From positions 29,961,079-30,025,078 of the forward strand of contig OZ005689.1 of assembly GCA_963930775.1 (NCBI GenBank): 64,000 nt of DNA. Reading direction: 5' to 3'. Both the position numbers and the translations under genes were made by a program. The stretch is from Cliona cf. orientalis. Taxonomy: Eukaryota > Porifera > Demospongiae > Clionaida > Clionaidae. The notes under the pieces were generated by a model. The model saw only the letters and a program-made list of their open reading frames with translations. It did not search any database and was not told where the DNA came from. This document shows, piece by piece, positions 30,467 through 52,236 of the stretch. How positions within the stretch are numbered: the first letter of the stretch is position 1; every line of letters starts with the position of its first letter.

Positions 30467-33400
30467 TTATTTCGAGAATCGATCTGGGGGATGAACAACT
30501 GTTCCAGTTCGTGATCGTGTTCGAATAACTTGAGTATCCTGTGACTGTGCACTCTCTCCATTTTCGACTGTCTCTGGCCTCTCACTCGTAGCGTTCTCTG
30601 ACCTGGGTCTCAAGTGTCTCCTATTTCTCCTAACCTGTCCAGTTGGAGTGTCTACAGCATAAGATCTGGGTGTTTCCAACTGTTGCGACACAGTGCCAGG
30701 AGACTGGTTACCTTGAGTAGAGACCCACACTGGTGTACCTTCTGGTAGCTCAATAGCAGTATGTGTGCGATGTCTCTGATCGTAATTTCTCTTTTGTTGC
30801 AGTTTGTGCTGCTTGTCTTTCTCTCTGAAATCTTTCAGGTGAGGCCAATCGGGAGTGAGATACTTCTTTATTTGTGGTACATCTGTACGAATGCGTCTCC
30901 CCATAAGGAGTTCCGCTGGACTCAATCCACACCACGGAAGTGGCGTTGCTCGGTAGCTTAGCAATGCTAGGTATGGGTCGTCAGTGTTGGAGATTAGCTT
31001 CTTTACGGTTTTCACTGTCCTCTCTGCCAAACCGTTGGACTGTGGGTAGTGTGGACTGCTGGTTATGAGAGTGAAACAATATCTCTCTGCAAATTCCTTC
31101 ATCTCTTGCGAAGCAAACTGTGGTCCGTTATCGCTCATGAACTCGACTGGTATGCCGTGACGAGAAAATATCCCTTTCAACGCAGAGATAACTCCAGCAG
31201 ATGTAGTTGAGGTCAGCTTCTGTATTTCCATGTATCTGGAATAGTAATCCACCACTACCAGGTATGTAGAATCTTTCAGCTGGAATAAATCAGCACCAAC
31301 TTTCTCCCATGGGTGACTTGGTAGAGCTGACTGTAACATTGGTTCTACTGGGGGTGGTGTGTTCTTCATGCACGTGGAACATCTCCTGACAAAGCTTTCC
31401 ACCTGCTTGGACACTCCTGGCCACCACACTGAGGATGAAACTCGAAGTCGACATCTCTGAATTCCTTGGTGTCCATGGTGTATTTTCATTAGAATCTCAT
31501 ACTGAAGACTCTCAGGTACCACAACTCTCGTACCGTGCAGTAGTAGGTCGTCAACTACTGAAAGCTTGTCTTTCTCTCCCCAGTATTTCTTCAGAATTCC
31601 TTTGATAACATGTCTCGCTGGCCACCCATTCTGTGTAAATTCAATGACCTTTGAGCAAATAGGATCGTCTTTCTGCGCTTCTCGAAACTGTTGCATTCTC
31701 CTTTTGCTTGCTGGTAGCTGTTCCACAAGTGAATCGACGAATCTCTCAACGTCCTCATCTCCCTCACATACGCCTTCGACTGACTTGATGGGAGCACGTG
31801 AAAGTGTGTCGGCAGTGTACAAATACATCCCGGGGACGTGAGCGATGGAATAGTTAAATCTCGTGAGGCGTAGTCGAAATCTCAATACTCTTGGTGGCAA
31901 CCTATCCAGTTGCGTTGCTCCCAGTAGAGGTACCAGGGGTTTGTGGTCGGTTTCGATTTGGATGTGCTTGCCGATGACATAGTCAGCAAACTTCTCACAC
32001 GCCCAAACAAGAGCAAGGGCCTCTTTCTCGATCTGCGAGTAGCGTTTTTCAGTCTCGGTCATAGACTTGGAGGCATATGCAATTGGTTTCCACTCCTCTC
32101 TCTCGTGACTCTGCAAGAGGACGGCACCTAGTCCATATGCAGACGCATCGGCTCGGATCTTCGTCTTTGCGTTTGGATCGTACAAGGCGAGCACTGTAGG
32201 TCTTGTTAACTCCTCCTTCACCTTCTTAAATGCCTCCTCCTGTGCTGGTCCCCATAACCATGCTTTCCTGGGACTCAGAAGTTCACGTAGGGGTTGTGAA
32301 CACTCAGCTAGGTTGGGGCTGAACTTTCCTAGCTGGTTAACCATGCCCATGAACCTTCTTAGTTCCTTCAGGTTCTTTGGTGCCTCCATTTCGACAATGG
32401 CTCTCGTCTTCTCGGGATCAGATGATACACCTTCTTTTCCTACCACTTGGCCCAAAAAGGTAAGCGACTCCTTGCTAAATTCACATTTATCTTTGTTGAG
32501 GGTGCCCCGGGCTGACTCAATTTTCTTCAGAACGGCGTGTAATCTGGCATCATGCTCCTCCTGAGTCTTGCCATACACGAGAACGTCATCTACATGCACG
32601 ATTGCACCTTCAAGGCCGGCAAGAGTCTCAACTATTCGACGCTGAAAGTGTTCTGGCGCGCTGTTAATCCCAAATGGTAGCTTGTTGAATCGAAATCTGC
32701 CGAATGGTGTGATGAATGTAGTCAAATCACGCGAGCTTTCTTCCAGGGGTACCTGCCAAAATCCGGAATTACAATCTAGCTTACTGAACACTGTAGCCCC
32801 AGCTAGTTTGCTCAGGTTCTCCTCCACTGTTGGAAGAGGGTGGACTTCTCTCAAAACATTTTCGTTAAGTGCACGGTAGTCAACACATATACGGATGGCG
32901 CCCGATTTCTTGGGGACGACAACCATTCCCGCACACCAGGTCGATGGTTTTCCTACTTTGGAAATTACCCCAAGAGACTCCATCCTCGCCAGTTCTTTCT
33001 GGACTTTCTCTCGTAGCGGGAAGGGGACGTTCCGTGGAGTGTATAATGCAAAGGGCTGTGCATCAGGCTTTAGCTCGATCTTGTATTCTCCCTTTAGGGT
33101 TCCTAGGCCAGTAAATAAGGATGGGTACTGTTCCAATATCGTTTTCTGAATGGTCTCTACTTTTGCAAGCATTTTCAGGGCTTTAATTGCAGGCAGTCCC
33201 AACAGGTTATTCTGTATGCCCTTTACCACATACACCGTCTGCTCAGCTGATCTGTTACTGTACATTAGACATGCAGTGAACTCACACGTTACGTTGAGTG
33301 GAGTTTTGTTAGCTGTTACGAGACGTTTGGTAGTGCTCCTCCTTTCCACCTTGGTATCTCGGGTTAGGCGGTTCATCGTTTCTTCCGTAATTACCGAAAC

Positions 33401-33760
33401 CTCTGCCCCAGTGTCCACTTTGAAAATTACAGTCTGTCCATTTACCGATAGGGACTCGTTCCATGAAGTACTACCATTCTCATCGCTGACTGCATCCAGA
33501 AAGGAAGCGTCATCCAACTCCGTAGTGTAGTCTTCGGCAACCTCAGAAACTTTGGAGAAACACTGTGATTTGTAGTGTCCTTTCTTCTTGCAGTTGTGGC
33601 AGGTGGCTTCCCTGGCTGGGCAATGCTGTCTGGAGTGTGGTCCCCTGCCACACCTGGTACACTTATTGCGGGTTGTAGAACGGTGCCCTGCTGTCTCTGT
33701 GGTCTTGTTACTTGGCTTTGTTTTCTTTGAATTTCTGGGGGCGCACACCTGCCCCTCGGT
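30467..33760 (-). CDS. pol: Pol polyprotein of the Ty3/gypsy element
   Basis: The frame is open for about 1,090 codons with no ATG at its start; it lies +1 relative to gag and overlaps it by about 40-50 nt. In order it has two zinc knuckles (CTRCGRGPHSRQHC region and CHNCKKKGHYKSQC), an aspartic protease (DTGAEVSVI), reverse transcriptase with the catalytic VDD (IVHVDDVLVYG, His in place of the usual Tyr), RNase H (ADASAYGLGAVL), and an integrase with an HHCC zinc finger followed by a D,D-35-E core (SDNGPQF and NGLAERTVK). There is no envelope gene and no clear chromodomain at the C-terminus. Expression probably needs a +1 shift, as in Ty3, or another recoding event in the overlap. Confidence 0.93.
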   Translation of the reverse strand, partial: TEGQVCAPRNSKKTKPSNKTTETAGHRSTTRNKCTRCGRGPHSRQHCPAREATCHNCKKKGHYKSQCFSKVSEVAEDYTTELDDASFLDAVSDENGSTSWNESLSVNGQTVIFKVDTGAEVSVITEETMNRLTRDTKVERRSTTKRLVTANKTPLNVTCEFTACLMYSNRSAEQTVYVVKGIQNNLLGLPAIKALKMLAKVETIQKTILEQYPSLFTGLGTLKGEYKIELKPDAQPFALYTPRNVPFPLREKVQKELARMESLGVISKVGKPSTWCAGMVVVPKKSGAIRICVDYRALNENVLREVHPLPTVEENLSKLAGATVFSKLDCNSGFWQVPLEESSRDLTTFITPFGRFRFNKLPFGINSAPEHFQRRIVETLAGLEGAIVHVDDVLVYGKTQEEHDARLHAVLKKIESARGTLNKDKCEFSKESLTFLGQVVGKEGVSSDPEKTRAIVEMEAPKNLKELRRFMGMVNQLGKFSPNLAECSQPLRELLSPRKAWLWGPAQEEAFKKVKEELTRPTVLALYDPNAKTKIRADASAYGLGAVLLQSHEREEWKPIAYASKSMTETEKRYSQIEKEALALVWACEKFADYVIGKHIQIETDHKPLVPLLGATQLDRLPPRVLRFRLRLTRFNYSIAHVPGMYLYTADTLSRAPIKSVEGVCEGDEDVERFVDSLVEQLPASKRRMQQFREAQKDDPICSKVIEFTQNGWPARHVIKGILKKYWGEKDKLSVVDDLLLHGTRVVVPESLQYEILMKIHHGHQGIQRCRLRVSSSVWWPGVSKQVESFVRRCSTCMKNTPPPVEPMLQSALPSHPWEKVGADLFQLKDSTYLVVVDYYSRYMEIQKLTSTTSAGVISALKGIFSRHGIPVEFMSDNGPQFASQEMKEFAERYCFTLITSSPHYPQSNGLAERTVKTVKKLISNTDDPYLALLSYRATPLPWCGLSPAELLMGRRIRTDVPQIKKYLTPDWPHLKDFREKDKQHKLQQKRNYDQRHRTHTAIELPEGTPVWVSTQGNQSPGTVSQQLETPRSYAVDTPTGQVRRNRRHLRPRSENATSERPETVENGESAQSQDTQVIRTRSRTGTVVHPPDRFSK

Positions 33761-34334
33761 TGCCGATCGCCTCCACAGGTAAGCCCTCTCCTTGAAACCC
33801 GCTCTTCAGCTGTACCTGCTGCTCTCGTACTGCTTCTCTCTGCCTGACCATCTTTTTTGCTGACTCCAGCGTAAGGTCGGCATCCAACTGTAGCTTTTGC
33901 GACATGGCTTCGTCTCGAATGCCAACGACTATCCTGTCGCGTATCATTTCGTCTCGAAGATCACCGTATGCACAGTTCTCGCTCAGCTGGTAGAGGCACG
34001 TTATGAACTGCTCTACCGACTCGTCTTGCTTTTGACATCTCCGATTAAACCTGGCTCTCTCAAAAATCACATTTTTCCTGACTTGAAAAAATGAGTCAAA
34101 TTTCGCGATCACCTTGTCATAGTCTTTCTGGTCGCTCTCGGAGATTTTCGTTGACAGCAGCGTGTCCTCTGCTTCCTCTCCCATCGTGTAGAGGAGCATA
34201 CTAACTTGTCGTTGTGTGGTCTCTGTGGAGAGACCCGATGCTTGGCGGAACTGCTCGAACCTCCTCTTCCACTTCTGCCATTCGTCTGGTTGGTGGAAGG
34301 GAAACGGTAAGGGTGGTTTTAACTGAACAGCCAT
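33708..34334 (-). CDS. gag: Gag protein of the Ty3/gypsy element
   Basis: About 208 residues from the ATG at 34334, shortly after the primer binding site. It has the usual retrotransposon gag core (WQKWKRRFEQF near residue 20 and the FERARFNRR and VEQFITCLYQL segments). The zinc knuckles are encoded not here but at the start of the pol frame, so the nucleocapsid is made only after the frame change or as part of Gag-Pol. It would form the particle that packages element RNA. Confidence 0.85.
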   Translation of the reverse strand: MAVQLKPPLPFPFHQPDEWQKWKRRFEQFRQASGLSTETTQRQVSMLLYTMGEEAEDTLLSTKISESDQKDYDKVIAKFDSFFQVRKNVIFERARFNRRCQKQDESVEQFITCLYQLSENCAYGDLRDEMIRDRIVVGIRDEAMSQKLQLDADLTLESAKKMVRQREAVREQQVQLKSGFQGEGLPVEAIGNRGAGVRPQKFKENKAK

Positions 34335-34365
34335 AGTTGCTGCTTTACCACCACTCCTGACACCA

Positions 34366-34549
34366 TGTAATATACTTTACTTGTAAGAATGATAATAATT
34401 CAAGGAATAAAACGTCGACGGGTACACACACAATATTGCATACATTAAAAGGAAGTGACATCACAATACATCATAATAATAAACACGCATGCGCAATAGA
34501 TAGTTATATACAGTACACAGTTACAGTTGATCGAATACATTATTCCACA
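34366..34549 (-). repeat. 5' LTR of the Ty3/gypsy element
   Basis: 184 bp. On the minus strand it begins TGTGGAATAATG and ends TATATTACA, directly followed by the tRNA-Leu-type primer binding site. Confidence 0.95.
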
Positions 34550-34962: not shown

Positions 34963-35004
34963 CTTTACTAGCACTATGTACAGGCTCATAAGCTTAAGTT
35001 CCAC

Positions 35005-37897
35005 TTTGTCTGTACATTATGAAACTCTGGATTATGAATGTAGACACTAAAACAAAGGTACTACTAAAGTTTGGTGGCCTACAGACAGTGCGTGTGGATA
35101 GGAGGTCCAAAAAGCTACCGAATTAGCCACTTAGTGTGTACATGTCGTATGTGGGATTATGTACACACTCACACACAAACAACTTTCCAACACTTTGTCT
35201 GTACATTATGAAACTCTGGATTATGATTGTAGACACTAAAACAAAGGTACTACTAAAGTTTGGTGGCCTACAGACAGTGCGTGTGGATAGGAGGTCCAAA
35301 AAGCTACCGAATTAGCCACTTAGTGTGTACATGTACATGTCGTATGTGGGATTATGCACACACTCACACACAAACAACTTTCCAACACTTTGTCTGTACA
35401 TTATGAAACTCTGGATTATGAATGTAGACACTAAAACAAAGGTGCCATTAAAGTTTGGTGGCCTACAGACAGTGCGTGTGGATAGGAGGTCCAAAAAGCT
35501 ACCGAATTAGCCACTTAGTGTGTACATGTCGTATGTGGAATTATGTACACACTCACACACAAACAACTTTCCAACACTTTGTCTGTACATTATGAAACTC
35601 TGGATTATGATTGTAGACACTAAAACAAAGGTACCACTAAAGTTTGGTGGCCTACAGACAGTGCGTGTGGATAGGAGGTCCAAAAAGCTACCGAATTAGC
35701 CACTTAGTGTGTACATGTACATGTCGTATGTGGGATTATGCACACACTCACACACAAACAACTTTCCAACACTTTGTCTGTACATTATGAAACTCTGGAT
35801 TATGAATGTAGACACTAAAACAAAGGTGCCATTAAAGTTTGGTGGCCTACAGACAGTGCGTGTGGATAGGAGGTCCAAAAAGCTACCGAATTAGCCACTT
35901 AGTGTGTACATGTCGTATGTGGGATTATGTACACACTCACACACAAACAACTTTCCAACACTTTGTACATTATGAAACTCTGGATTATGATTGTAGACAC
36001 TAAAACAAAGGTACTACTAAAGTTTGGTGGCCTACAGACAGTGCGTGTGGATAGGAGGTCCAAAAAGCTACCGAATTAGCCACTTAGTGTGTACATGTAC
36101 ATGTCGTATGTGGGATTATGCACACACTCACACACAAACAACTTTCCAACACTTTGTCTGTACATTATGAAACTCTGGATTATGAATGTAGACACTAAAA
36201 CAAAGGTGCCATTAAAGTTTGGTGGCCTACAGACAGTGCGTGTGGATAGGAGGTCCAAAAAGCTACCGAATTAGCCACTTAGTGTGTACATGTCGTATGT
36301 GGAATTATGTACACACTCACACACAAACAACTTTCCAACACTTTGTCTGTACATTATGAAACTCTGGATTATGAATGTAGACACTAAAACAAAGGTACTA
36401 CTAAAGTTTGGTGGCCTACAGACAGTGCGTGTGGATAGGAGGTCCAAAAAGCTACCGAATTAGCCACTTAGTGTGTACATGTCGTATGTGGGATTATGTA
36501 CATACTCACACACAAACAACTTTCAAACACTGTCTGTACATTATGAAACTCTGGATTATGATTGTAGACACTAAAACAAAGGTACCACTAAAGTTTGGTG
36601 GCCTACAGACAGTGCGTGTGGATAGGAGGTCCAAAAAGCTACCGAATTAGCCACTTAGTGTGTACATGTACATGTCGTATGTGGGATTATGCACACACTC
36701 ACACACAAACAACTTTCCAACACTTTGTCTGTACATTATGAAACTCTGGATTACGAATGTAGACACTAAAACAAAGGTGCCATTAAAGTTTGGTGCTACA
36801 GACAGTGCGTGTGGATAGGAGGTCCAAAAAGCTACCGAATTAGCCACTTAGTGTGTACATGTCGTATGTGGGATTATGTACACACTCACACACAAACAAC
36901 TTTCCAACACTTTGTCTGTACATTATGAAACTCTGGATTATGATTGTAGACACTAAAACAAAGGTACTACTAAAGTTTGGTGGCCTACAGACAGTGCGTG
37001 TGGATAGGAGGTCCAAAAAGCTACCGAATTAGCCACTTAGTGTGTACATGTACATGTCGTATGTGGGATTATGCACACACTCACACACAAACAACTTTCC
37101 AACACTTTGTACATTATGAAACTCTGGATTATGAATGTAGACACTAAAACAAAGGTGCCATTAAAGTTTGGTGGCCTACAGACAGTGCGTGTGGATAGGA
37201 GGTCCAAAAAGCTACCGAATTAGCCACTTAGTGTGTACATGTCGTATGTGGGATTATGCACACACTCACACACAAACAACTTTCCAACACTTTGTACATT
37301 ATGAAACTCTGGATTATGATTGTAGACACTAAAACAAAGGTACTACTAAAGTTTGGTGGCCTACAGACAGTGCGTGTGGATAAAAGGTCCAAAAAGCTAC
37401 CAAATTAGCCACTTAGTGTGTACATGTCGTATGTGGGATTATGCACACACTCACACACAAACAACTTTCCAACACTTTGTCTGTAGATTATGAAACTCTG
37501 GATTATGAATGTAGACACTAAAACAAAGGTACTATTAAAGTTTGGTGGCCTACAGACAGTGCGTGTGGATAGGAGGTCCAAAAAGCTACCGAATTAGCCA
37601 CTTTGTGTGTACATGTACATGTCGTATGTGGGATTATGCACACACTCACACACAAACAACTTTCCAACACTTTGTCTGTACATTATGAAACTCTGGATTA
37701 TGATTGTAGACACTAAAACAAAGGTACTACTAAAGTTTGGTGGCCTACAGACAGTGCGTGTGGATAGGAGGTCCAAAAAGCTACCGAATTAGCCACTTAG
37801 TGTGTACATGTCGTATGTGGGATTATGCACACACTCACACACAAACAACTTTCCAACACTTTGTCTGTACATTATGAAACTCTGGATTATGAATGTA
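35005..37897. repeat. Satellite array, ~190-bp unit in dimeric higher-order pattern (left part)
   Basis: About 15 copies of a ~190-bp unit, marked by GGAGGTCCAAAAAGCTACC every 187-195 bp. Two unit types mostly alternate. One has TGTACATGTACATGTCG, GATTATGCAC and GGTGCCATTAAAG; the other has TGTACATGTCG, GATTATGTAC and GGTACTACTAAAG. This gives a dimer of about 380-384 bp, and nearly identical dimers recur at 35312, 35696 and 36076. Short open frames in the array are by-products. The array is cut at 37897 by the CACTA element and resumes at 49220. Confidence 0.95.
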
Positions 37898-38355
37898 CCC
37901 TACTCAAAATGGAGCGCCTGAAACATGCATGTTTCATGCATGTTTCAGCACATTTCATGCGCCCAAATCCAGAAACTTCCATGCATGAAATTTCCAGTAA
38001 CAATATTGAATAATTTGAGATTTCATGCATGTTACATGCATGATTCCTGAAACATGCATGTAACATGCAGGGATTTGGGACGTTTTTCAGGTATGGGACA
38101 TGCATGTTACATGCATGAAGTAATGCACATATTTCATGCATGTTTCATGCATATTTCATGCATGGAATATGAATGTTTTATGCATGAAATGTGCATGTTT
38201 GATACATGGAATTTGCATGTTTCGTGCATGGAATATGCATGTTTCATGCATGAAACATGCATGTTCCATGCCTATTCCAGGTATAGAACATGCGGGTTCC
38301 ATGTGTGGAACATGCATGTTCCATGTGTGAAACATGCACGTTTCATGCATGAAAC
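37898..38355. repeat. Left terminal and subterminal repeats of the CACTA element
   Basis: After the 39-bp terminal repeat come over 20 copies of short palindromic words built on CATGCATG, TTTCATGCATG and GAACATGCATG in both orientations. Such arrays in plant En/Spm bind the element's own DNA-binding protein; here the BEN protein is the candidate binder. Confidence 0.85.
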
Positions 38356-38468
38356 GTGTACCATACACAGATCAGATTCTATATTATTATTACATACGGA
38401 ATACAATAATGCATAAGGATTATTAACTAGTATAATATTATTGTTATGTTTGGTTCTGGTAACTTAAT

Positions 38469-41400
38469 CTAGTTGAGAGTCTTTCCGGCTTTAAGTAGTG
38501 CCCTCCTCTCCTCCCCACACTTGTTAGTTAAGTCACGCATCAGCTTGTCAGCTGTTGCCTGTGGGAATCTTTCAAGGCAAAACTCTATTATGGAGAGAAT
38601 AATAATTCATAAATTCACTATGTAGTTGTAAGCAGAGTTCTCTTACTGAAAACGGCTCTCCTGATACGGTCATTGATCTTGCCAGCTGAACTCACAGCCA
38701 GGCGCTGGGGACGGTACCAGATACCGATGAGGTTTCTCATCAACCCAGTACACGTCCCCTTGCTCGCTTGCTGTTTAGCTTCGAGTTCAATATACGGTAC
38801 GTAAATGCCATAGCCTGGAACAAGCTCTTTTTTCTGTATAAGAAAATATGAGTGATCATTAACTGAGAGGCTAATGTAAAAGTTATCTGTATTCTTATCC
38901 CAGCTATTATACTGGAGCCTATATATCTATTATGGTCATCCATGGGTCACAAATCAGTGGCTACACTAGAGGTGGCTTGTATCAAGTTGACCCCAAGGTG
39001 GCACTTTGCCAATAAACGGGTGCCTATCTTATTCAGTGACCATTATTATTATACCAGGTTGGGCTCTATGTCAAATCCATGAAATTTGTGTAACTAAGGA
39101 TACTCACTCCTTCACCAGCTTCAAAGGCAGCCTGCTCCAAGGCCAAGTCAGCTGGAGTTAGCTGATAAGTGAAGCCATTGACAGTTATCCTTTGCAGGCT
39201 ATCCTATAATGTAAAAAATGTTTATGTGCAAATTCAAATTTAGTGTACTAATGATAGTAATTTTGTTACCTCTTGAGTGCTGGAGCTTGAGCTAGAGTCA
39301 GGGGATTTCACTGGGTGCTACACACATACAATCCAACTGAAGCCAATATCAACCTATTGTGACTATTATACCTTATTACAGGACCATGACACATCAACTT
39401 CTTGCTTGGGTGGTATGTTCTATGATAGCAATACATAATCATAATTATATATACATGTAGCAAAACACCTGTTTCTATTACCTTTGGTTTCACACTGGAT
39501 ATCTCACTTTGGGTTTTCCCAGTAAGGGACTATAAAAGTACATGACATTGTTAATTATAAGCAAATTAAGCAAACATTATAATTTATACCTTATTAAATC
39601 CAAGTGTGGCTTTAAATTTCTCTAACTTTTCAATATTTTTCAGTCTCATTTTCTCATATGGGCTAAGATCCTAATGATAATAAGAATAAGCATGTACTTG
39701 ATTATTGTGGATGATAATTACACGACAAACCTCGATATCCTCGTCAGTACTGGAATCACTGCTGCTATCATCACTGACCTCAACATTGTGACCGTAGAAG
39801 TGTACTATCTCTTCTAAGAACTTGATTGCAGATGGTGAGGGTGTAGCTGTAATAGTGCCAATGGGGTGTGAGATTAATGCATAAAATTAGGACTGTTAGA
39901 ATGTTGGGGTATACTATTAAGTGATTATTCAAGCCCGTTGTCAAGTGGTTGCTAAGGTATACATAGTATTACATAGCCTCGTGTCCATCCCTATTCCCAC
40001 CTTGGGATGGGCACGAGGCTGAGTATTAGCCTTGTCCCCAGGCCACTCCCACGTTTTCTGAGTGCAACATTGAAAACGTGTGAGTGGCCTGGGGACGAGG
40101 CTGGCTAAGTATTACATACGTCCACCACAAAAAACTTACATAGGGTGTTCTTTGACAAGCTGCCACACTCAGCAAGCTTCAACTTTTGTTCAAGCTGCAT
40201 TATGGTTTCATTTCTGGCCTCGATATCACACTTTTGCTGACTCAACTTCTCTTGCAGCTCATCCACCCTTAGTTGTAGCTCAATGCACTTAGTACAGTCT
40301 TTCCTTTGAAGCCATCTCATACCTATCTCCTTTACAGCATCGATCTCGGCTCTCTTTTTTTGTTTCTTTTCTTCTTGCTGCTCTTTCTTACTCTTCTTCC
40401 TTAACTCGTTTACTTCCACACTGCTACTATCATCATTGATTGGTCGTTTTCTTTTATAGCCATTGCTTGGTTCCTCTAGGCTGCTCTCACTTTCATCTTC
40501 ACATTCCAACTCTTTCAATTTAATCTCAAGCTCTGCTTTTGAGTCTGCCAATAAAATACATTAACCACGTAAATTTCATTGAGTACCTGCCTGCGCTAAG
40601 GGGACACTTTATAAAGAATATCATGTAGCATCACTGTCTTGGACCCTCTCCCCATCCCCTTACCCCCTTGTAGGTGGTAGCATTAGCATTTACATAATAT
40701 AGCTGTATATACAATCCAGCTCAAAGCCAAGGTTTAAAAGAAGTGTCATGCATGGTCCTGGCCCTCCCCCTACCCTATAGCACCCCACTGGCATTATTTA
40801 AGTGTCCCCTAAACTACTTTTATTCCTACATGTAGTACCCATGGGGAGTATGGAAGGCAATAATATTAATGATATGTGCTTGGTATATCAAGAATTATTA
40901 CACCAGCTTCACATCCAGCCTTTGTCCCATCCCCTCACCTTGGATAAAGGTTGTGCTATCCCATGTAGCAAGCTAGGCTCATAGGCACCAGACTTTACAA
41001 GTGCTGTTGTAGCTCACTGTGATAATAATTATTATCTCATATCTGATCTATATTCCAGACTTGTGCTTCTTCATGCTTTACTGTGCTTTGTTGGTAGTTG
41101 CCTAGCAACCCAAGTTTTTATGCATCTCATGCACCCAATTACTGTCAGATAATTATTATTAATTTTGCAATAGCATGGTCCCCAGGCCACTTCTGTGTCT
41201 TCAATGTTACATGGGAAAGTCAGTTGTCCAGTGAAAAGGATAAACATGTAGGCAGGGGCTCTGAAGTGCTTAATTCAGTTATGTATACTACAAGTCACAA
41301 AGGCCATATTACATGGCTAGAAATCCTAGTGCAAATGAGGACATCCTATACAAATGCACTATAGATTAGATAAGACTAAGGGTAATTAGCGATTTACAAG

Positions 41401-42403
41401 AAAATTACAAGATTTACATGAATATTCATGAACTACTTTGTATTAGCGTCTATGGAGGAAGCCAGGTAAGAATTCATTTTTGCACAACTTTGACTAAGAT
41501 GGGAAGGATGCAGGAAGTTGGTCATAGCTGGTTCATGATAAATATAGTAACATTGAACCTTAAATTAGCATACCAGGGAGGGACAAATGTGTCCCCGCTT
41601 AGTACACGCCCACTGTACAGCTGCAAAGAAGTGCTATATAGGCGTTTTTGCATTACCGCCTATGGCGGTGAGCGAGTAAAATAGGCAAACGTTCGGGAAC
41701 AAAATTGTCAACAGATCAGGCTCACTTCTGCTGTTCCCTGAGACCAGAGGCGGTTGTTCTTGATATTCGGTTGGGGACAAAGGTAGGCAGTTGTAAATGT
41801 CGGGAGAAAACGGCCGTGATAATCAACCAGCCTATAGTTTATAGTACTTACGGCTGTCATAGTATACGGACATAGTAACCGGAAATGTCAACTTCCGTGT
41901 CCGCGCATTTCTGGCCATGATACAGGTGCCACTCTAGACAACTGACCTCAAAGCACAGTAGCTAGCCACAAGGCAAAAGGCTGCACTGGGGTGGTCTAGC
42001 AGTAGAGTTTTGGGCACGTTTGGTGGTAATACTAACCCACTTTAGTGGGCAGATAAGGGAGGCTATTAGTGGTTAACTAGGTCCACTGTGGGTAAGCCAA
42101 AGGAATGTGTGAGATTACTCACTAAAAACCACCCAAGTACCAGTAATTGTCTATTAGCCAGCTGGCGTGGCTCCGTGGTAGAGCTGGCTACTGTCCATTT
42201 GTGTATGTATAATACAGTAAGTACATACCTGACAACTCCAAAATAGTGGCTGGATAGCGTGCTTTCGCGGAGGTCCAGCGACAAATTCCGTCAAAAGGTA
42301 CTTCGGTGGCAGGTGATACTTCTGGTTCCAATATCCATTTTGCTGGAATAACAGAGCTCTTGTCCTCCTCCTTCCAGTTCACCAGAGCATATCCACCAGC
42401 CAT
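38469..42403 (-). CDS. BEN-domain protein of the CACTA element, 9 exons
   Basis: Exons 42403-42229, 40544-40140, 39846-39731, 39670-39590, 39529-39482, 39317-39270, 39203-39108, 38833-38647 and 38584-38469 join in frame, GT-AG throughout, to about 423 residues. The N-terminus (MAGGYALVNWKEEDKSSVIP) is a short Trp-containing module seen in other BEN proteins. Residues about 60-190 are a Lys/Glu-rich coiled coil with a basic stretch (KKSKKEQQEEKKQKKR). A Ser/Asp-rich linker follows. The C-terminal ~120 residues fit a BEN domain: LMRNLIGIWY, LAVSSAGKINDRIRRA and FPQATADKLMRDLTNKC. BEN domains bind DNA, so this protein probably recognises the subterminal repeats, a role like TNPA in plant En/Spm. 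An upstream ATG at about 42418 is also in frame. It shares a promoter gap with the transposase. Confidence 0.72.
39972..40105. repeat. Two adjacent hairpins (AGCCTCGT... and GTCCCCAGGCCACTC family)
   Basis: AGCCTCGTGTCCATCCC pairs with GGGATGGGCACGAGGCT at 39975-40020. AGCCTTGTCCCCAGGCCAC at 40029 pairs with the strand ending at 40104. Both lie in an intron of the BEN gene (39847-40139). The second is the same family as 23365-23428. Confidence 0.8.
41985..42215 (+). repeat. tRNA-like segments, possible SINE
   Basis: GGCGTGGCTCCGTGGTAGAGC near 42167 matches the D-arm and A-box region of a tRNA, and GGTGGTCTAGCAGTAGAG near 41994 is a weaker second. Neither extends to a full cloverleaf by eye. 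They sit in intron 1 of the BEN gene, so a tRNA-derived SINE is the simplest reading. Confidence 0.3.
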
Positions 42404-42526
42404 GGCCAGGAGATGCATCAACGACAGTGCAAGAGCAGCTGCAATAATGCGCTCTTTTTTTTTTAAACGCGCGCGCATGCGCAGCTTTCGAGTATACAGG
42501 TACATGTACAATTACAATCAACCGCC
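42404..42526. promoter_or_regulatory. Shared divergent promoter of the CACTA genes
   Basis: Only 123 bp separate the ATG of the BEN gene (42403, minus) from the ATG of the transposase (42527, plus). It contains a T tract and GC-rich palindromes (GCGCGCGCATGCGC). Both transcripts must start here or very close, so the two genes are likely co-regulated. Confidence 0.65.
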
Positions 42527-45500
42527 ATGGACAATGATATGGAAGAAACGATGGAAGCCAGCACTTCTGAGACTGCTTCCAGCTCTTCGACGGTAAGTCA
42601 AATATCTGTGGTATAATTTTAATTGAGTTAATATGAAGTAGCGGTTGAACGTTAATTATCGTTGCCCGCTGACGCTAGATACTTCAAGTGTGTGGTCTGA
42701 GAGTTATCGTACCGCTGGATTCGCTGCTACAGTGCTAGCGCTTGCGGGGCTGATAAATAATTTATCGTCCTGAAAACGACAACGGCCTGTCAATACGTAC
42801 TCACTATGGGCCATGACTCGAGCGCGAGCGGCTCAGTGACATTAATAGCCGGCTGCAGCTGCATAGTAGTACAGTATAGCTATACTTGTGCACATCGTGG
42901 GCGTGGTTATTGCGATCGGTCGCATTGATAATCGATAGTATCTTACTAGCGCTAAGTTGAGTTTAGTTCTATGCGCTCAAATCTGGGCCTATAGACACTC
43001 TTTAGGAGATTTCTATGTAAGGGTTCTACTGAGCCCTGAGCCTGAGGTTTTCTAAATCACATAGAAACCGACTAAACAATGCCTAACAGATTTTAGATCA
43101 TAGCTGTAACAAATATTGTAATTTGATTGGCTATACCTATATCTCATAGTCACCTACAAGATTTTCATAGTCACCTACATGTTTTGCCTTCTGACTCTTA
43201 GCAATACAAAGCTATGTGATGTAAACTAGTTAGACACTGTTTAGTCGGTTTCTATGTGATTTAGAAGACCTAGCAGGGCTCTCATAGAACCCTCGCTTCG
43301 CTCGGGATTCTATATAGAGTCCTTCGGTCTTCTAAATCACATACAAACCTCCTAAACAGTGTCTAACTAATATTTAATAGATCCCATGACATAAAATGCT
43401 GCCTAGCAACAATCCTAACCATGGGCAATAATTTTTTTACGAATATTTTACTTTAAATGCTATGCAACATGCATGATTATCCTGGCTTTTATGGTTTTTA
43501 AACGGTTTGTATATACATTAAAGTAGCAGGTAGCTGGAGAAAAGAGGTGCAAACGAGGCCCGTATAGACAAGGGAAAAAGATTCCAAGGCAGACACTACA
43601 TAATCGTAAGTTATCGAGTCATGACCAGAGTGAAGGAGAGGATACCAGAGTGAGAGGATACCAGAGTGAAGGAGAGGATACCATCAGCGATCTTGGCGGA
43701 ATAGGAATTGGAAATTTTGATGATGAGAATCATGATGACGAGCAAAGCAGTAGTGAACAGGAAGTTGCAGGCAACTCTACAGATTCACCTCAACATCCAT
43801 ACCTATATGATGGTTGTGCTGTAACTGCTCACTCGGCATGTTTGCTAATCAAGAGCTACGCTTACCGCCATCAACTCTCTGGACAGGCCCAAACAGATCT
43901 TCTCAGATTGTTTCAGCTAAAGCTACCCAAGCCAAACACCTTACCACCATCTCTTTACCTCCTTCGCAAAGGAGAAAATCTGTCAGATGATATAGTGCGC
44001 CATTACTACTGTAATCGATGCTCTGCTGTCGTATCTAATCCACTATCAACCTCCACATGTCCGAATGCAAGCTGTCGTACAGAGTTTCAGAGGGATTCAA
44101 ATAATTTCTTTATTGAGCTCAATATAGGGCAGCAACTGAAGACGATACTATCACGTAAAACAGGTTTACATGTAGGGCTTAACTTGGGTCAGAATCTGTG
44201 TTGACGCTTATGTGTCAACCTGCGTTTAATGTGGTTCAGTTTGGTACGTGTAAACGGGGCTTAAAACAATTATTATTTCTTTTGCCTATGGCTAGTTTGT
44301 TGCTAGGCAGTTGTTTATATACAAAGTTTTTTGGGCATTGTTGCTAAGATCTAAAGTTGCTGTAAGTGATTTTAGAATATAGTTGTAACAAATACAGCGA
44401 TCTGATTGGTCAATTGGAGGTCCATTATTTCACTTAGAGACCTTTCAGTTCACTTATAGACCTCTTAGAGAGGTAGGTCTATTATTGAGCTGCCAAAGGC
44501 AAAGAAAGATGCACAGTGCAACAGTAGCCCAGTCCCCAGGCTAAATGTCATGGTTACAGTTGCTATACTCTAAATAAGTTAGAGATCTCGTCCAATGGTC
44601 TTTACGCCTTTTAAGAGACTCTCAGGCCCTTAGTAGCACCCTCGCTGCACTCGGGATGCTATACAGCCTCGGGCCTTTGGGTCTCACAAAACGCGTAGAG
44701 ACCTCGGAGTGTCCAATCAGATCACAGTATTTGTTACAACTATATTCTAATATAATACGTATGTCACAAATATGCATCTTAATAATAATAGGCCCTGGAT
44801 TTACCAAACTGCTACAATATCAGCAGCAGAGGCACAGTCACTGTATTGAAGACATGTACGATGGTACATTGTACAGAAGACTCCTCAAACCCAGAGGTCC
44901 TCTCAGTATTGAAGGAAATATTTCTCTCACCTTGAATACCGATGGAGTTGATGACATATTTCACTCCACCACTTATTCTCTTTGGCCAGTTTTCCTGTCA
45001 ATTAATGAACTTTCACCTTCTCAAAGGTATATTAAATTTTTTACCATAGGTGGGGTGGGGAGTAAGGGGTGGGCGGCAAGCCTAAGGAAGTCCCACAAAA
45101 CTATATTACATTACATTATAGCTCAACGCACTTAGCACATTAGCCTTACCCTGGCCTAAGGTACACGTTCTAAGGCAACTATTCTTTTCACATCTGGTGA
45201 GATGATTAGTTTTCACAGCTGCCCACTGTTGGTCTGTAGGAGTTCACCGATCACTAATATACAACTATAACTATATTGCATTATTATGTTTAACTCCTAT
45301 AGGAAAAGACAGGAAAATGTGATATTGGCAGCTTTATGGTTTGGGAGATCAAAACCAGCTATGTCCACCTATTTGGAACCAATACTCAACTCTCTTATGA
45401 CACTTGAAACAGAAGGTGCATACTTATCTTATTATAGCTATTACTGTTGGATTGGTATATTATGTGGGGCAAAAATTATGTGATTTTCAACTTAAAGTGT

Positions 45501-48500
45501 TAAAGCATACTATTGATAATCCATGCTTTTTCACTTTTCACTGGACAGGAGTACTTGTTGAGAATCCTGATACGAAGGAACTTCGCACAGTACGAGCCTA
45601 TACAATCTGTTTTACCGCTGATCTACCTGCACGAGCTTCAGTACAAAATATGGTGCAGTACAATGGCTTTTATGGTTGTTCTTTCTGTGAGCAACCAGGT
45701 GAGACAGTGAAGACCAGTCTGAGGGGACACGTTCATACTTTTCAGTTTGATGCAAGCAACCCAGGTGGACCTAGCAGAAAACATGATGTAGTGATCACAC
45801 ATGCCATCCAAGCACTACAAAAGAGTGAATCGGTATGTTGTCACGCCAATATAATACTGCTCGCAATATTGGTCCAGCGCTTGCCTGGGACACTACAATA
45901 TAATTTGGACAAACAATATTATTATAATTCCCGCCAATATGGTGTGATTTTTCTTTGCTACAGGTCTGTGGTGTCAAGGGACCCTCTGGCTTAATGTGTC
46001 TTAAGCATTTTGATTTAGTTTGGGGGACATCAGTGGAGTACATGCACTGTATCATGCTTGGAGTTGTTAAGACACTTCTATCACTTTGGACGGATCCAGC
46101 CAAATCTCGTGGGACGCTACATGATATAGAACCTGATCTGCCGCTCATTGATCAGCGCATTGCTCAGATTCAAGTGCCAACTGAGATGCCAAGGAAACCC
46201 AGAAGCATTAAAGAGCATCTTGGTGATTGGAAAGGTTAGCAACCCACCTCTAGTACTCCTAAAGATTAATTTAAAAAGATCTTTTCTCTGCAACAGCGTC
46301 TGAATATAGAGCATGGCTGCTGTTTTACTCCGTACCTGTCTTACAAGGAATTCTTGATGAATCCTATCTGCATCACTACGTTCTTTTGGTTGAGGCCATA
46401 TGGTTGCTGCTGCAAGATTCGATCAGTGAGCAAGATCTTACTGATGCAGAGAAGTCCTTGCAGCTATTTTGCCTACAATTTGCAACGTTTTATGGTAAAT
46501 ATCATGTCTATAGCATCATCTGTCGTCGACAGAATGTATGTATGGAATTGAATTGATAAATCTGTTATCAAGTGAATGATCATAATAATATTATGTTATA
46601 ATTATTAGTATAGGTAATAGTGAGGTTGTATGTTGAATTTGTACAATTGATGAACCAAATGCCTATTTCAGAGTGCTATTTACCCAAATTCAACATACAA
46701 CCTCACTATCACAGGCTAATAGTATACATACACAAAGTCAGATAGGTATTTCAACTCAGAATGGTATTTCAAACTCAGGTGCCTATTTCACTTGTAATAC
46801 TTGTAATTGGTATACAAGATTTGTATACATCAAAGTACAAGTATACTATTATTATTATTATAGTGCATGTTCTTGTTTATATAGAGAAAAGATACATGAC
46901 AATCAAAGTTCACCAGTTGCTACATCTTGTTGATAGTGTGAGATGTCTTGGTCCTCTATGGGCTCATTCCTGCTTCCCCTTCGAAAGTCTCAATGGGCGA
47001 ATTAAGCGAATGTTCCACGGGACTTGTAGTCCTCATTTACAGGTACATATCGTTATTACGCAAATAATAATAATGATAATATATACTTATTGCCATAGTA
47101 GAACGACGATACCGGGAAATATCACGAGTTCATTGCCGCGTATTGTTACGAGTGTGAAGCACGTTCGAGCGGTAAAGCTAAGAAGGGACTCAGCGGCTTC
47201 GTTTAAGTTTTGGCGATGGCCGCCGTCACCGAAGACTAAGGCGTATAGCTAAGTAAGGTAAGGGCAGCGGCACCATGGCTCATTTATCTAACTCGGGCAA
47301 CAAAAATGACGGATAGCAGCAACTCACTTTCTTCTCTGGCGCTCAACGTTCAACCATTGTTCAACGTTTCAACACTGTCTATATGGCGATCATGTGACGA
47401 ACACGACTGATACGAATTTTGCACGTGACGAACACGACTGATATGGGAAATTATCATTCGTGTTTCCACCCACGCGTTTCCCATATGTTTGTATTACGGG
47501 TCAAAGTTCAATATACGATAATAGCTATTATATACACATGTGCAGATGATGAAAGCAGTGCGACAAATGCAGCAACTGTCAGGAGGAAGTGATCAACTGC
47601 CAGAAGTATTATCTGGTTACTGCAATGATATGACATCACATGCAAGCAACAGGTAGGTGTAAAATTATAGTGTGCATGCACGCATTCAAAGTACATTATA
47701 AGTCTAAAATCATGCGTATTATTATTGTAGTGTATTACTTTGCTTTAAATTTCCCTAAGGACATTCTTCACGTACTTCCCGCCTACTGCGTATTGCAATA
47801 ATTTTATTATTAATTTTGAATGTTTGCTAAATCAGGTACAGCGTTACTTGTGAGCTTCAAACCCATAAGATTTTGGGGAAGATTGTCAAGAACTCTCGGC
47901 TCTGCAGCAGTGATGTGCAAGCTATAGGAAGTAACATTGACATCACGAAAATGATGACTTACCAGAGGTATGCAAGTAGTACTAGCATTGGGCTAATGTA
48001 TGAATTGATGATAACGTATTAAATTTTATATAATAATTATTACAGAATCCTGAAGAGTGGCCGAGTGTTCGACACCATCAGTTCGCAGTTTACATCAAAA
48101 AACGATCACACTATTTGCTATCAAGCAGGATCCAAGTGTGAATATGGTGTGATAGTCAAGTTCATCAGTTATTGTGAGAGTGGGTGCCAGGTACATCACA
48201 ATCCTGAGGAGAGATACTGCCACCACCAGGCACTGATCCATCCATTGGAATGTTCCTCATGGATGGTAAAGCACATCTTGTCATCAAGGTTTGTATGCTT
48301 AGTAATAGCTGTAACTGCAACTGCACGTGTTTTGTGTGCATGAGTTTAAAATTGTGTGTCCTATACAGCTTGCCATCAACTCAAGTTAAGGCAATCCCCC
48401 TGAACAGGATATATAAATGTGTGTACATTCACTTTTCGAGAGCAACCGTTGACGATCAGTATTACCTGGCCAAACTGCCTAATGATAGAGAGAGAGATCT

Positions 48501-48504
48501 GTAA
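42527..48504 (+). CDS. CACTA/EnSpm Tnp2-like transposase, 13 exons
   Basis: Exons 42527-42592, 43530-43605, 43657-44154, 44792-45026, 45303-45415, 45549-45832, 45964-46234, 46297-46494, 46885-47042, 47546-47652, 47836-47967, 48046-48288 and 48369-48504 join in frame to 838 residues. Early residues are acidic and Ser-rich, then a Cys pair domain (CNRC, CPNASC). The transposase core has LTLNTDGVDDIFHSTTYS followed by WPVFLSINELSP and LAALWFGRSKP, the hallmark of Tnp2/Transposase_21 proteins, then CSFCEQPG and YMHCIMLGVVKTLL. A DUF4218-like part follows (HQLLHLVDSV and WAHSCFPFESLNGRIK). It should cut the element at its inverted ends. No stop or shift was found, so the gene looks functional. The exon 3 acceptor (43656) lies in a small tandem duplication and is the least certain. 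Confidence 0.85.
42990..43092. mobile_element. Foldback MITE, short copy
   Basis: TAGACACTCTTTAGGAGATTTCTATG faces CATAGAAACCGACTAAACAATG in inverted orientation. It is a diverged, shorter relative of 43229-43368, in intron 1 of the transposase. Confidence 0.6.
43229..43369. mobile_element. Foldback MITE
   Basis: TTAGACACTGTTTAGTCGG near 43230 is inverted as CCTCCTAAACAGTGTCTAA at the right end, with an inner palindrome around CCCTCGCTTCGCTCGGG. It is about 140 bp, lies in intron 1 of the CACTA transposase and is non-coding. Confidence 0.75.
44370..44760. mobile_element. MITE with AGAATATAGTTGTAACAAAT termini
   Basis: AGAATATAGTTGTAACAAATACAG at the left is inverted at the right (TATTTGTTACAACTATATTCT). 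The inner part includes a foldback around CCCTCGCTGCACTCGGG. About 390 bp, in intron 3 of the CACTA transposase. Confidence 0.8.
46616..46716. repeat. Short hairpin MITE
   Basis: GTGAGGTTGTATGTTGAATTTG pairs with CAAATTCAACATACAACCTCAC (about 46621-46709). It lies in an intron of the CACTA transposase (46495-46884). Confidence 0.75.
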
Positions 48505-48949
48505 CACACTAACACATGCAAGTTGGAAACTGTAGCCATGAAAATATGTTGTGTGTATATCATGAATGTTATTAATAGTCGCAATTGTTATGGAAGCACA
48601 CATGGTCATTCCCATAGTTACATGTACACATTGCATGAATCACTCGTAACATTGAGATGGTATATGCATTCGACCATGCATCTTTTTGTGCCCCCAGGCA
48701 ACAAATATCAAGTCTGATATAGCAGCAACTCAAGATCAATTTGGCCTTTGTGCGAAAAAATAGCGCTCAACGTTCAACCGTGGTTCAACGTTAATTTCAA
48801 CACTGAATATATATGGCGATCATGTGACAAACACGATTGATACATGAATTATACTACTATGTGTTGCCATACACATGTTTCCCATATTATGGGTTAAAGT
48901 TCAATATACAATAAAAGAGTTGACACACTTACTCGTATACATTCATGCT

Positions 48950-49219
48950 TGCTTTTCATGCATGCATGAAACTACATGCATGCATGCGTCACTCCTGATA
49001 TTCCATGCATGTTTCATGCATGTTTTGTACTTTCATTCATTCCTGAAATTACCATGCATGTTTCATGCATGTTTCATGCCTGAAACCTGCACTCCTGAAA
49101 TTGTCATGCATGTTTCATGCATGAAATTTGCACATTTGAAACTACCATGCATGAAACACTGCTTCATGCATGAAATGTGCTGAAACATGCATGTTTCAGG
49201 CGCTCCATTTTGAGTAGGG
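48950..49219. repeat. Right subterminal and terminal repeats of the CACTA element
   Basis: CATGCATG-based words recur about 15 times, then the inverted terminus ends at 49219. The array is shorter than the left one but uses the same words (TTTCATGCATG, ACCATGCATG). Confidence 0.85.
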
Positions 49220-50545
49220 TAGACACTAAAACAAAGGTACTACTAAAGTTTGGTGGCCTACAGACAGTGCGTGTGGATAGGAGGTCCAAAAAGCTACCGA
49301 ATTAGCCACTTAGTGTGAAGATGTCGTATGTGGGATTATGTACACACTCACACACAAACAACTTTCCAACACTTTGTCTGTACATTATGAAACTCTGGAT
49401 TATGATTGTAGACACTAAAACAAAGGTACTACTAAAGTTTGGTGGCCTACAGACAGTGTGTGTGGATAGGAGGTCCAAAAAGCTACCAAATTAGCCACTT
49501 AGTGTGTACATGTCGTATGTGGGATTATGTACATACTCACACACAAACAACTTTCAAACACTGTCTGTACATTATGAAACTCTGGATTATGAATGTAGAC
49601 ACTAAAACAAAGGTGCCATTAAAGTTTGGTGGCCTACAGACAGTGCGTGTGGATAGGAGGTCCAAAAAGCTACCGAATTAGCCACTTAGTGTGTACATGT
49701 CGTATGTGGGATTATGCACACACTCACACACAAACAACTTTCCAACACTTTGTACATTATGAAACTCTGGATTATGATTGTAGACACTAAAACAAAGGTA
49801 CTACTAAAGTTTGGTGGCCTACAGACAGTGCGTGTGGATAGGAGGTCCAAAAAGCTACCGAATTAGCCACTTAGTGTGTACATGTACATGTCGTATGTGG
49901 GATTATGCACACTCACACACAAACAACTTTCCAACACTTTGTCTGTACATTATGAAACTCTGGATTATGAATGTAGACACTAAAACAAAGGTGCCATTAA
50001 AGTTTGGTGGCCTACAGACAGTGCGTGTGGATAGGAGGTCCAAAAAGCTACCGAATTAGCCACTTAGTGTGTACATGTCGTATGTGGGATTATGCACACA
50101 CTCACACACAAACAACTTTCCAACACTTTGTCTGTACATTATGAAACTCTGGATTATGAATGTACACACTAAAACAAAGGTACTATTAAAGTTTGGTGGC
50201 CTACAGACAGTGCGTGTGGATAGGAGGTCCAAAAAGCTACCGAATTAGCCACTTAGTGTGTACATGTCGTATGTGGGACTATGTACACACTCACACACAA
50301 ACAACTTTCCAACACTTTGTCTGTACATTATGAAACTCTCGATTGTGAATGTAGACACTAAAACAAAGGTACTATTAAAGTTTGGTGGCCTACAGACAGT
50401 GCGTGTGGATAGGAGGTCCAAAAAGCTACCGAATTAGCCACTTAGTGTGTACATGTCGTATGTGGGATTATGTACACACTCACACACAAACAACTTTCCA
50501 ACACTTTGTCTGTACATTATGAAACTCTGGATTGTGAATATAGAC
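49220..50545. repeat. Satellite array, right part
   Basis: Seven more copies of the ~190-bp unit, continuing exactly where the left part stopped (GACACTAAAACAAAGG follows the transposon). The last copies carry more substitutions, as expected at an array edge. After about 50545 the sequence becomes unique. Confidence 0.93.
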
Positions 50546-51250
50546 ACAAAATTGAATATGATACAATGTTCCCAAAGTGCAGATAATGCAAAGAACGCAT
50601 TAGTAAATATTAAGTTTATATGGACACACTTAATTAGTGAACACAATTTCATGCACATACATACATAGATCTACTCTCTAACAGCTAATTATTGTCAGTA
50701 CTAAGTTCCTGTCTTTGTACCTTGTTGACATAGCTGAATCCAACGAAGTTTAGGACAAAAAGCCAGTCAAATCTTGCTGACTAGAACGTGGAGTTAATCA
50801 TGTAGGTCTATGTAGACTTGACTGAAAGGGGGATCCATGGCTGCCTGGGATCCCCCCTAGATCCGCCACTGAGTTTTGATAGACTGAGGTATATTAAAAA
50901 AATCATGAAGTTTGTAAAGTGACAAGTAAGCTTTAACAAAAATTAGTTGCATACCTGGCTTGTTTGTCCGTGACTTGTACTTCATTCTACCTTTGATGCC
51001 CACTAACAGAGACAGAAACTTTAATACTACCCACGTGTCCCAGGCTCCTTGTCCACTTTGTTTCCATAGATGATGTGACTGTACTGGTCGCCAGCGCAGC
51101 TAGATCGGTAGCGACTTGGGTGGAGTAAGAGGTGTGGCTAGCTGCGTTGTGGGTGTGGCTAAGTCTGTCCGCATGCGTACTACTGTATTCTTTCACCTTC
51201 TGAACATCGGCGCTAGGCGCGAGAATGAACTATTCGCGCTATAGAGAAAG
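50546..51250. other. Non-coding, with a MITE end
   Basis: No gene is visible. At 50855-50874, CTAGATCCGCCACTGA matches the right end of the AGTGGCGGATCCAG MITE family (15631-15961), with G/C runs before it. No clear left end is seen, so this is a truncated copy. Confidence 0.5.
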
Positions 51251-51267: not shown

Positions 51268-52236
51268 ATGATCGCTTCATACAGGCAACTTTTTGATATG
51301 AGTCCCACAGTGTCCATTTGTGATGCAATTAGCGATCCAGCATGTCTGGAGAGGTGCAACTGTACCCGTAGCAAGTCTCCTTTGCCTGCCATAGACCTCA
51401 CAGGAGACTCTGAGGAATCAGATAACAGCCATATGCCAGCTGGTAACAATGTATGTTTGGCTTAATAACGTGCTGTACACACTCAGTGATGGAGAACGTG
51501 AAACAATAGAGTCTCCTTCTGGATGGCTGAATGACAATGTGATTTCAGCCGCTCAGTTGCTCATACTGCAGCAGTTTCCCCACATATCCGGTCTCCAGCC
51601 ACCCACACTTGCTCAGACCAAGGCTTTCCAAGTCCACAGGAGAGAATTTGTTCAGATTCTATGTGTTGGAGGCAACCACTGGTGCACTGTTTCCAATGTG
51701 GGTTGTAGCGAAGGTGTTGTCAATGTGTACGACAGCATGTACTATTCTGTGTCTTCCACCACCGTTAATGTCATAGCCAGCCTGTTGTTCACATCTGCCT
51801 CTAAGCTTGTGATTAGAGTGATGGATGTTGGTAAACAATCTAATGGCTCAGAATGTGGAGTCCTGTCTATAGCTTTTGCTTACGACATTTGCTGTGGGAA
51901 TGACCCCTGCAAGGCTAAGTACAAACATTAGTCAATCAGACAACACTTGCTCAAGTGCTTGGAAGAGTGCCACCTTTCACGGTTCCCCATAGTTGGCAAG
52001 CGTAGGCATTCTAATATATTCTTTAGAGTGAGCCGTGCACCGTACCCTTCTAATATAAAGCATAGTCAGGAGGTTGAGCTTCACTGTTCTTGTCGCATGC
52101 CAGAGGTAGGAGGGGATGTGATGGCTCAGTGTGATTCATGTAATGTGTGGTATCACCAACACTGCATGGACATCCCAAGAGATGTTTTTGGTGATTCAGA
52201 CGTTCCTTGGGTGTGTAAAAACTGCATGTGTTAACT
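51268..52236 (+). pseudogene. Ulp1-like Cys protease with PHD finger, disrupted
   Basis: The first block (51268-51451) is acidic and Ser-rich. After a frame change near 51450 the protease follows: SPSGWLNDNVI, then GGNHWCTVSN (His), VNVYDSMY (Asp) and KQSNGSECGVLS (Gln and Cys), the C48/Ulp1 triad in order. A TAG stop at 51929 interrupts the frame. The same frame continues with HLLKCLEEC and a C-terminal PHD finger (HCSC, CDSC, WYHQHC, WVCKNC) to 52236. Just before the PHD finger, 13 extra residues come from a 39-nt insertion at 52019-52057. In transposons such proteins often accompany Mutator-like or other DDE transposases; its role there is not established. Frameshift plus stop make it a probable pseudogene. 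Confidence 0.7.
52019..52057 (+). other. Templated 39-nt insertion in the Ulp1-PHD gene
   Basis: TTCTAATATA occurs at 52009-52018 and again at 52048-52057. The 29 nt between them, plus the next four, are identical to the reverse complement of 24606-24638 in the Mutator-like transposase gene (33 nt in all). The net change is 39 nt and keeps the reading frame. Confidence 0.88.

Follow-up and report, generated by a model that had tools for sequence, protein, structure and literature searches.

A TRC-branch (animal CACTA) transposon of the sponge Cliona cf. orientalis and its head-to-head partner gene, assigned to the BEN family through its relatives

Which protein takes the place of TNPA, the second DNA-binding protein of plant En/Spm, in the CACTA transposons of animals? 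The cited passages of DeMarco et al. (2006; PMC1636069) leave the question open, the small proteins of SmTRC1 being given there as without relatives. It is raised again by a locus of the sponge Cliona cf. orientalis, for which we analyzed a window of 64,000 nucleotides (GenBank assembly GCA_963930775.1, contig OZ005689.1, positions 29,961,079 to 30,025,078 of the forward strand; positions below are those of the window unless a contig is named). The window holds a transposon of 11,322 bp (37898-49219) with two divergent genes, one encoding a transposase and the other a partner protein. An original prediction, made from the letters of this stretch, held it to be a complete CACTA transposon whose partner is a BEN-domain protein. 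Our analysis places the element in the TRC branch, the animal CACTA elements, and its partner, by way of sister elements, appears to be a divergent BEN protein. We regard it as probable that this is a complete TRC transposon of a recently active family, in which the transposase would play the part of TNPD, and the BEN protein, by binding arrays of CATG, that of TNPA.

Structure, class and copies of the element

The transposon ends in inverted repeats that are perfect over 39 bp, the left one (37898-37936, plus strand) beginning CCCTACTC and being 100% complementary to the right one (49181-49219, minus strand), which confirms the span and ends originally proposed; the repeat sequence opens CCCTACTCAAAATGGAG. 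A 189-bp satellite array surrounds the element (35002-37897 and 49219-50551), and its left part also fits a 384-bp period. Since the insertion lies within this satellite, the empty site can be read: monomers without the insert read GAATGTAGACAC, giving an empty site of GAATGTA/GACAC and a target-site duplication of TA, which was read from the flanking sequence at 37896-37897 on the left and at 49220-49221 on the right. A search of the left end against phages returned no match.

These features place the element in the TRC branch, which is marked by CCC ends and 2-bp duplications (DeMarco et al., 2006; PMC1636069). Both the CCC ends and a 2-bp duplication were found in the window element and in all six copies with paired ends, and the transposase is a Transposase_21 protein. 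Plant En/Spm elements have CACTA ends and a 3-bp duplication, whereas the ends here are CCCTA and the duplication 2 bp, and the En/Spm label was rejected on these grounds. Thus, the earlier designation stands at the level of a transposon of the CACTA superfamily, but not for the plant type.

Both gene models were assembled by hand from the sequence, with GT-AG introns throughout and no internal stops, and their 10 and 12 exons make up the 22 that had been predicted. The transposase gene (42527-48504, plus strand) encodes 855 aa in an open frame over 12 exons (42527-42592, 43530-44154, 44792-45026, 45303-45415, 45549-45832, 45964-46234, 46297-46494, 46885-47042, 47546-47652, 47836-47967, 48046-48288 and 48369-48504). 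Its product matched Transposase_21 (PF02992) at 2.5e-14, above the cut-off, and DUF1258 at 1.2e-8. Fourteen relatives with 26-43% identity were found in the protein database, of which the four named ones come from a hemichordate, the axolotl, a sponge and a thrips, with the genera Glandiceps, Ambystoma and Corticium among them. Residues D281, D371 and E631, which we take to be catalytic, are invariant across eight aligned proteins. When the transposase alignment was run against viral and prokaryotic contigs, it gave 42 and 28 pattern matches, respectively, with no true relative among them. A diverged repeated segment, with blocks of 94% and 88% identity, lies in a transposase intron (47340-47520) and past the 3′ end of the gene (48760-48920), and is perhaps an older small insertion.

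The two genes diverge from a gap of 123 bp (42404-42526), as had been predicted, and this shared region is presumably a bidirectional promoter. It contains the palindrome GCGCATGCGC, CATG included, which we take to resemble an NRF-1 site; the partner protein could possibly regulate itself through it.

Six gene-less copies of the family (L002-L007) were found in the host genome. They are 1.4-1.6 kb long, begin and end with the same 30 bp and are flanked by duplications of CG, TA, CA, AG, TA and TA, respectively; L008 was excluded from the paired copies, as its two left ends are not paired with right ends. The copies share with the window element ~302 bp of the left end (92-93% identity) and ~72 bp of the right end (94%). 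Copy pairs at different sites are 99.87% identical over 1,528 bp and 99.85% identical over 1,308 bp, and identity of up to 99.87% among gene-less copies indicates recent movement. Among the 147 matches of a left-end search (40 of 178 candidates scored), the left end occurs in at least 41 distinct places including the window, 39 of which reach the first base. No second transposase copy of more than 50% identity was among the matches listed when 53 of 373 candidates were scored. A rearranged relative of the family lies on C3 and retains pieces of 50-83% identity. As far as seen, there is one intact autonomous copy with many dependents.

The partner gene and its pairing with the transposase

The partner gene (38469-42403, minus strand) encodes 439 aa in an open frame over 10 exons (42403-42229, 40544-40140, 39846-39731, 39670-39590, 39529-39482, 39419-39372, 39317-39270, 39203-39108, 38833-38647 and 38584-38469). 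Its first ~58 aa (42229-42403, minus strand) form an N-terminal domain common to the partners of sister elements, as judged by tblastn (C5, C11) and a profile. The following exon (40140-40544, minus strand) reads as basic and coiled-coil-like and yields the protein's sole Pfam match at E≤1, a weak one to UPF0242 (E 0.61). Residues ~340-439, encoded by exons 9 and 10 (38469-38833, minus strand), are the putative BEN domain, assigned via sister-element relatives. The partners look like proteins of one common plan, with the N-terminal domain, a basic or coiled-coil-like middle and BEN in that order.

The chain of homology starts from a sister element, 3678 (C1:36.78 Mb), whose partner matched Pfam BEN with 30.9 bits (cut-off 23.2; 3.1e-7) and the NACC1 structure in the PDB at 3e-5. 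The window partner is 38% identical to this protein over 96 aa. Two further sister partners scored 22.1 and 21.9 bits against Pfam BEN, slightly below the cut-off. A profile of four partner families matched NACC1, the best PDB match for the sister-element BENs, at 7.5e-7, and a profile built from two sister BENs picked up exon 9 (1.5e-9) and exon 10 (8.9e-4) of the window partner among 2,487 open reading frames (ORFs). The window BEN is 19-52% identical to three sister BENs and has in common with them a conserved C-terminal Arg-Arg. The N-domain profile, made from the window partner, C5 and C11, found only two more ORFs (9.3e-7 and 0.0028), both belonging to sister elements that stood outside that profile. 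Taken together, the relatives mark the window partner as a divergent BEN protein, so that this part of the original prediction holds, although by way of sister elements and not by a direct Pfam match.

Pairing of the two genes was examined across the host genome. Transposase loci (80) were taken as the union of searches with the Transposase_21 profile and the window transposase, and BEN-like loci (112) were taken from Pfam BEN and four partner queries, including weak matches with E up to 1. As the transposase search scored 53 of 373 candidates, the resulting counts are lower bounds. A BEN-like match was present within 10 kb at 20 of the 80 transposase loci, and all 20 were head-to-head, none being otherwise arranged. 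In 500 shuffles of position, such pairs averaged 0.41 and never exceeded 4, and chance neighbors were rejected as the cause on this basis. By class, pairs were seen at 17 of the 22 loci at least 34% identical to the window transposase and at three of the 33 known by Pfam only. The possibility, raised with the original prediction, that related elements lack the BEN gene did not apply in this genome.

The 20 pairs include that of the window, the C6 query source locus and near copies of query loci; once query loci and their copies (BEN at least 75% identical) were removed, 14 remained. In two of these the BEN match is weak (E 0.026 and 0.097), and some appear to be copies of a single family (C1:24262680, C6:4603161 and C11:3111615; also C1:33282657 and C6:4952713), while three overlap independent Pfam BEN matches (C1:24266926, C6:4607748 and C11:3108408). 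Four extra head-to-head pairs stand outside the count. Three of them (C5, 13771501 and 36782001, each with a partial transposase match) were found via the partner search and the fourth, a nested element, in a stretch fetched for that search, so they are no evidence of frequency. The nested element is a 6,241-bp TRC with CCCGTGTG ends and a TA duplication. It has inserted into a copy of a different TRC that also carries BEN, and its own transposase and BEN genes stand head-to-head. Additionally, a locus picked by its transposase alone, with no earlier Pfam BEN match (C6:66,960), has a BEN-like exon on the opposite strand and the expected side; the match is weak (12.6 bits, E 0.17) and covers 62 aa, the exon running off the end of the stretch, and the partner there shows by eye a coiled-coil-like stretch and the N-domain.

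Several multicopy, Pfam-positive BEN families (L009-L012, L013-L017, L019-L021 and L022/L023/L027) had no transposase detected within 10 kb; they may be host genes that have expanded, or may serve other mobile elements as partners. One stand-alone gene (L054, C11:5515084-5517038, minus strand) combines the N-domain with a Pfam BEN match. The 20 kb retrieved for it contain no match to a transposase, and it is a candidate for a domesticated partner.

Subterminal arrays and the role of the partner

Arrays of CATG are specific to the ends of the element. The left array (37921-38352) consists of CATGCATG with a period of ~11 bp, and the 473 bp of 37898-38370 contain 42 CATG (dinucleotide-shuffle mean 13.2, maximum 23). 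The right array extends over 48941-49200, and the 279 bp of 48941-49219 contain 26 (mean 7.7, maximum 13). The interior of the element is at background, with 67 against 60.3. Many array CATG occur as CATGCATG, so spaced that they recur at roughly one helical turn. In the gene-less copies, the first 450 bp and the last 300 bp each hold 19-34 CATG, compared with 3-13 per kb in mid-copy. In the C5 family, whose BEN is the nearest (52%), the sequence just past the BEN gene is CATG-rich (33 vs 10.8); the ends of C5 were looked for and not found, and its array is placed only by lying past that gene. Other families have other motifs: an 8.1-kb family, whose BEN is 31% identical, carries ACAACCTTGT five times at one end, three times at the other and nowhere inside, and the family of the nested element has CGCG (left, 23 vs 9.3; right, 8 vs 4.2, where 8 equals the shuffle maximum).

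The BEN domain of NACC1 selects ACATGT, with core CATG (PMC7764960), and its helix 5 contacts CATG in the crystal (PMC11472053); CGCG is read by BANP and BEND3 (PMC11472053). The CATG arrays would fit the specificity of NACC1, and the residues of the contact helix appear partly conserved. TNPA binds subterminal repeats, which are required in cis for excision and vary by family (PMC2613891), and DBD1, a BEN-like domain of the Tn3 transposase, binds the inverted repeat of its transposon (PMC9579193), so that the fold is capable of end-binding. The arrays, the CATG preference of NACC1, the TNPA repeats and Tn3 DBD1 together suggest that the BEN protein may be the functional counterpart of TNPA. 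End-binding had been put forward as a new role for BEN; with Tn3 DBD1 it would not be wholly new for the fold, and the proposed role itself gains strength from Tn3 (PMC9579193) and from NACC1 (PMC7764960; PMC11472053). In the mechanism that we propose, the Transposase_21 protein would cut and join at the CCC termini. The BEN protein would bind the palindromic CATG arrays beside both ends, oligomerize through its middle region, and unite the two ends or tune the promoter. On this reading, the BEN protein may also be a requirement of transposition.

A first alternative is that the BEN protein is the element's transcription or anti-silencing factor, which would bind the arrays for expression or repression and act outside the cutting complex. 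VANC of VANDAL elements is a comparable anti-silencing factor, and the arrays flank the entire element. Moreover, BEN proteins are mainly transcription and chromatin factors (PMC11472053), and the Spm promoter is regulated by TNPA itself (PMC1636069). However, the gene-less copies of 1.4-1.6 kb, presumably movable without transcription, have kept both CATG arrays, as expected if these are required for mobility, and we consider this alternative unlikely, if far from negligible.

Several results weigh against a BEN partner that reads CATG at the ends. In alignments made by eye, the CATG-reading Asp462, Thr465 and Arg469 of NACC1 correspond to Asn, Gly and Arg in the window BEN and to Ser, Gly and Arg in the C5 BEN, while the BEN of the ACAACCTTGT family retains Asp and Arg; the code of NACC1 is hence not simply transferable. 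No PF10523 match was obtained with the whole window partner at E≤1 or with its C-terminal 132 aa at E≤10, and the window partner alone had no match in the PDB. The full 439-aa protein found nothing at E≤1 in the protein database (7,991 candidates scored), a null that we tentatively put down to crowding of the search by low-complexity words, and a masked alignment of the four partner families found nothing among 7,992 candidates. Among the 2,487 ORFs, the BEN-like ones of the nested element and of C6 were missing from the matches of the two-sister BEN profile; likewise, those of the N-domain profile did not include the partners of C6 and 13771501, in which this domain was recognized by eye. The four transposon BENs were also compared by profile with nine further BEN ORFs of the host genome; the link was weak (probability 9%), which leaves the chain through sister elements as the basis of the BEN assignment. 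As for pairing, none of the 25 transposase loci less than 34% identical showed a BEN neighbor; since the partner queries all came from this clade, a diverged BEN beside distant transposases could be missed. Five of the 22 nearer loci lacked a BEN-like match within 10 kb, two of them having one in the same arrangement at ~16 and ~19 kb, and only 20 of the 112 BEN-like loci adjoin a transposase.

A second alternative gives the BEN gene no role in transposition: it would be a passenger, or a former host gene that the common ancestor of these elements took up. The genome is rich in BEN-like loci (the 112 above, weak matches included), and the stand-alone gene on C11 has the same architecture of N-domain and BEN. 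Capture of a host gene on a single occasion had also been considered alongside the original prediction: as the BENs are 19-52% identical, one recent capture is excluded, and one ancient capture is still compatible. Against a passenger stand the 20 of 20 neighbors in head-to-head order, across families with BENs so diverged from that of the window, and the frames that are open across 10 exons in a recently active family; we judge it improbable. That the second protein is an unrelated TNPA-like DNA-binding protein and not BEN would agree with the missing direct Pfam and PDB matches, but is most improbable given the significant links of sister elements to Pfam BEN and NACC1 and the conserved Arg-Arg.

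If the BEN protein is the end-binding partner, a structurally known, named DNA-binding domain would now stand in TNPA's place, repeated across sister families, with end arrays that consist of the same tetranucleotide as is bound by a host BEN protein. This would offer a route to finding the missing partner in other TRC elements and a possible origin for the expanded BEN repertoires of animals. The known sites of host BEN transcription factors include CATG and CGCG (PMC11472053). More tentatively, BEN might be the ancestral end-recognition partner of the animal TRC clade, co-evolving with family motifs (CATG, ACAACCTTGT, CGCG), and some host BEN factors might be domesticated partners; we hold this wider proposal to be possible, though doubtful.

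Neighboring features and comparison with known systems

Elsewhere in the window, a 305-aa ORF (59542-60459, minus strand) combines a coiled-coil-like stretch with a C-terminal region similar by eye to the L013-L017 BEN ORFs. Neither Pfam nor a tblastn search with the L014 ORF gave a match for it, and it is at most possibly a second BEN-like gene of the window. A Gypsy-like retroelement (30467-34376, minus strand) consists of a 1,112-aa ORF with protease, reverse transcriptase, RNase H and integrase and of an upstream ORF. Two overlapping long ORFs lie at 27249-29643 (plus strand), the first coiled-coil-like and the second with a very weak match to RAG1 recombinase (E 0.032). An ORF at 51395-51931 (plus strand) encodes a Ulp1/C48-type protease (PF02902, 9e-5), a type often carried by transposons.

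No report of a BEN protein as a CACTA partner was found in the open-access literature, Repbase and subscription papers being outside the scope of the search; the closest precedent is DBD1 of Tn3 (PMC9579193). BEN proteins of bracoviruses and domestication by moths are a subject of PMC4574769, and a zebrafish study treats DUF4806 as a BEN subtype (PMC11075544). DUF4806 genes are numerous in animals and might include some with transposon neighbors.

The nearest known systems are the TRC elements, SmTRC1 of Schistosoma mansoni and those of Tribolium and Aedes, with which the window element shares CCC ends, a 2-bp duplication, Transposase_21, introns and deletion derivatives (PMC1636069). The Tribolium end, CCCTAG..., is near the CCCTAC... 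of the window element (PMC1636069). TRC elements are also marked by several alternatively spliced transcripts. The small proteins of SmTRC1 are splice products, with no relatives found according to the cited text (PMC1636069), whereas the partner here is encoded by a separate, divergent gene that we assign to BEN. Spongebob, or EnSpm-4N1_HM, of Hydra is likewise an animal CACTA relative with CCC ends and a 2-bp duplication; its exact transposase was not found in that study, and the cited portion mentions no partner gene (PMC4298943). En/Spm of maize, Tam1 and Tgmt* have in common with the window element a Transposase_21/tnp2 protein, a further, DNA-binding protein (TNPA/TNP1) and subterminal arrays whose repeats differ in sequence from family to family (PMC2613891; PMC1636069). 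They differ in their CACTA ends, in the 3-bp duplication of Tgmt*, and in TNPA, which splicing yields from the transposase's own transcription unit and which the cited passages do not call a BEN protein (PMC2613891; PMC1636069).

NACC1 (NAC1), the best PDB match of the sister BENs, binds the CATG that forms the core of the window arrays, but is a host transcription factor with a BTB domain, and its base-contacting residues are partly shared. DBD1 of Tn3 TnpA has a BEN-like fold in sequence-specific contact with transposon ends (PMC9579193). It differs in being bacterial, in lying within the transposase and in binding the terminal inverted repeat, the likeness being one of fold (PMC9579193), whereas the window BEN is a separate protein beside subterminal arrays. 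If the proposed role is true, these would be two unrelated transposon systems that use a BEN-like fold at their ends (PMC9579193).

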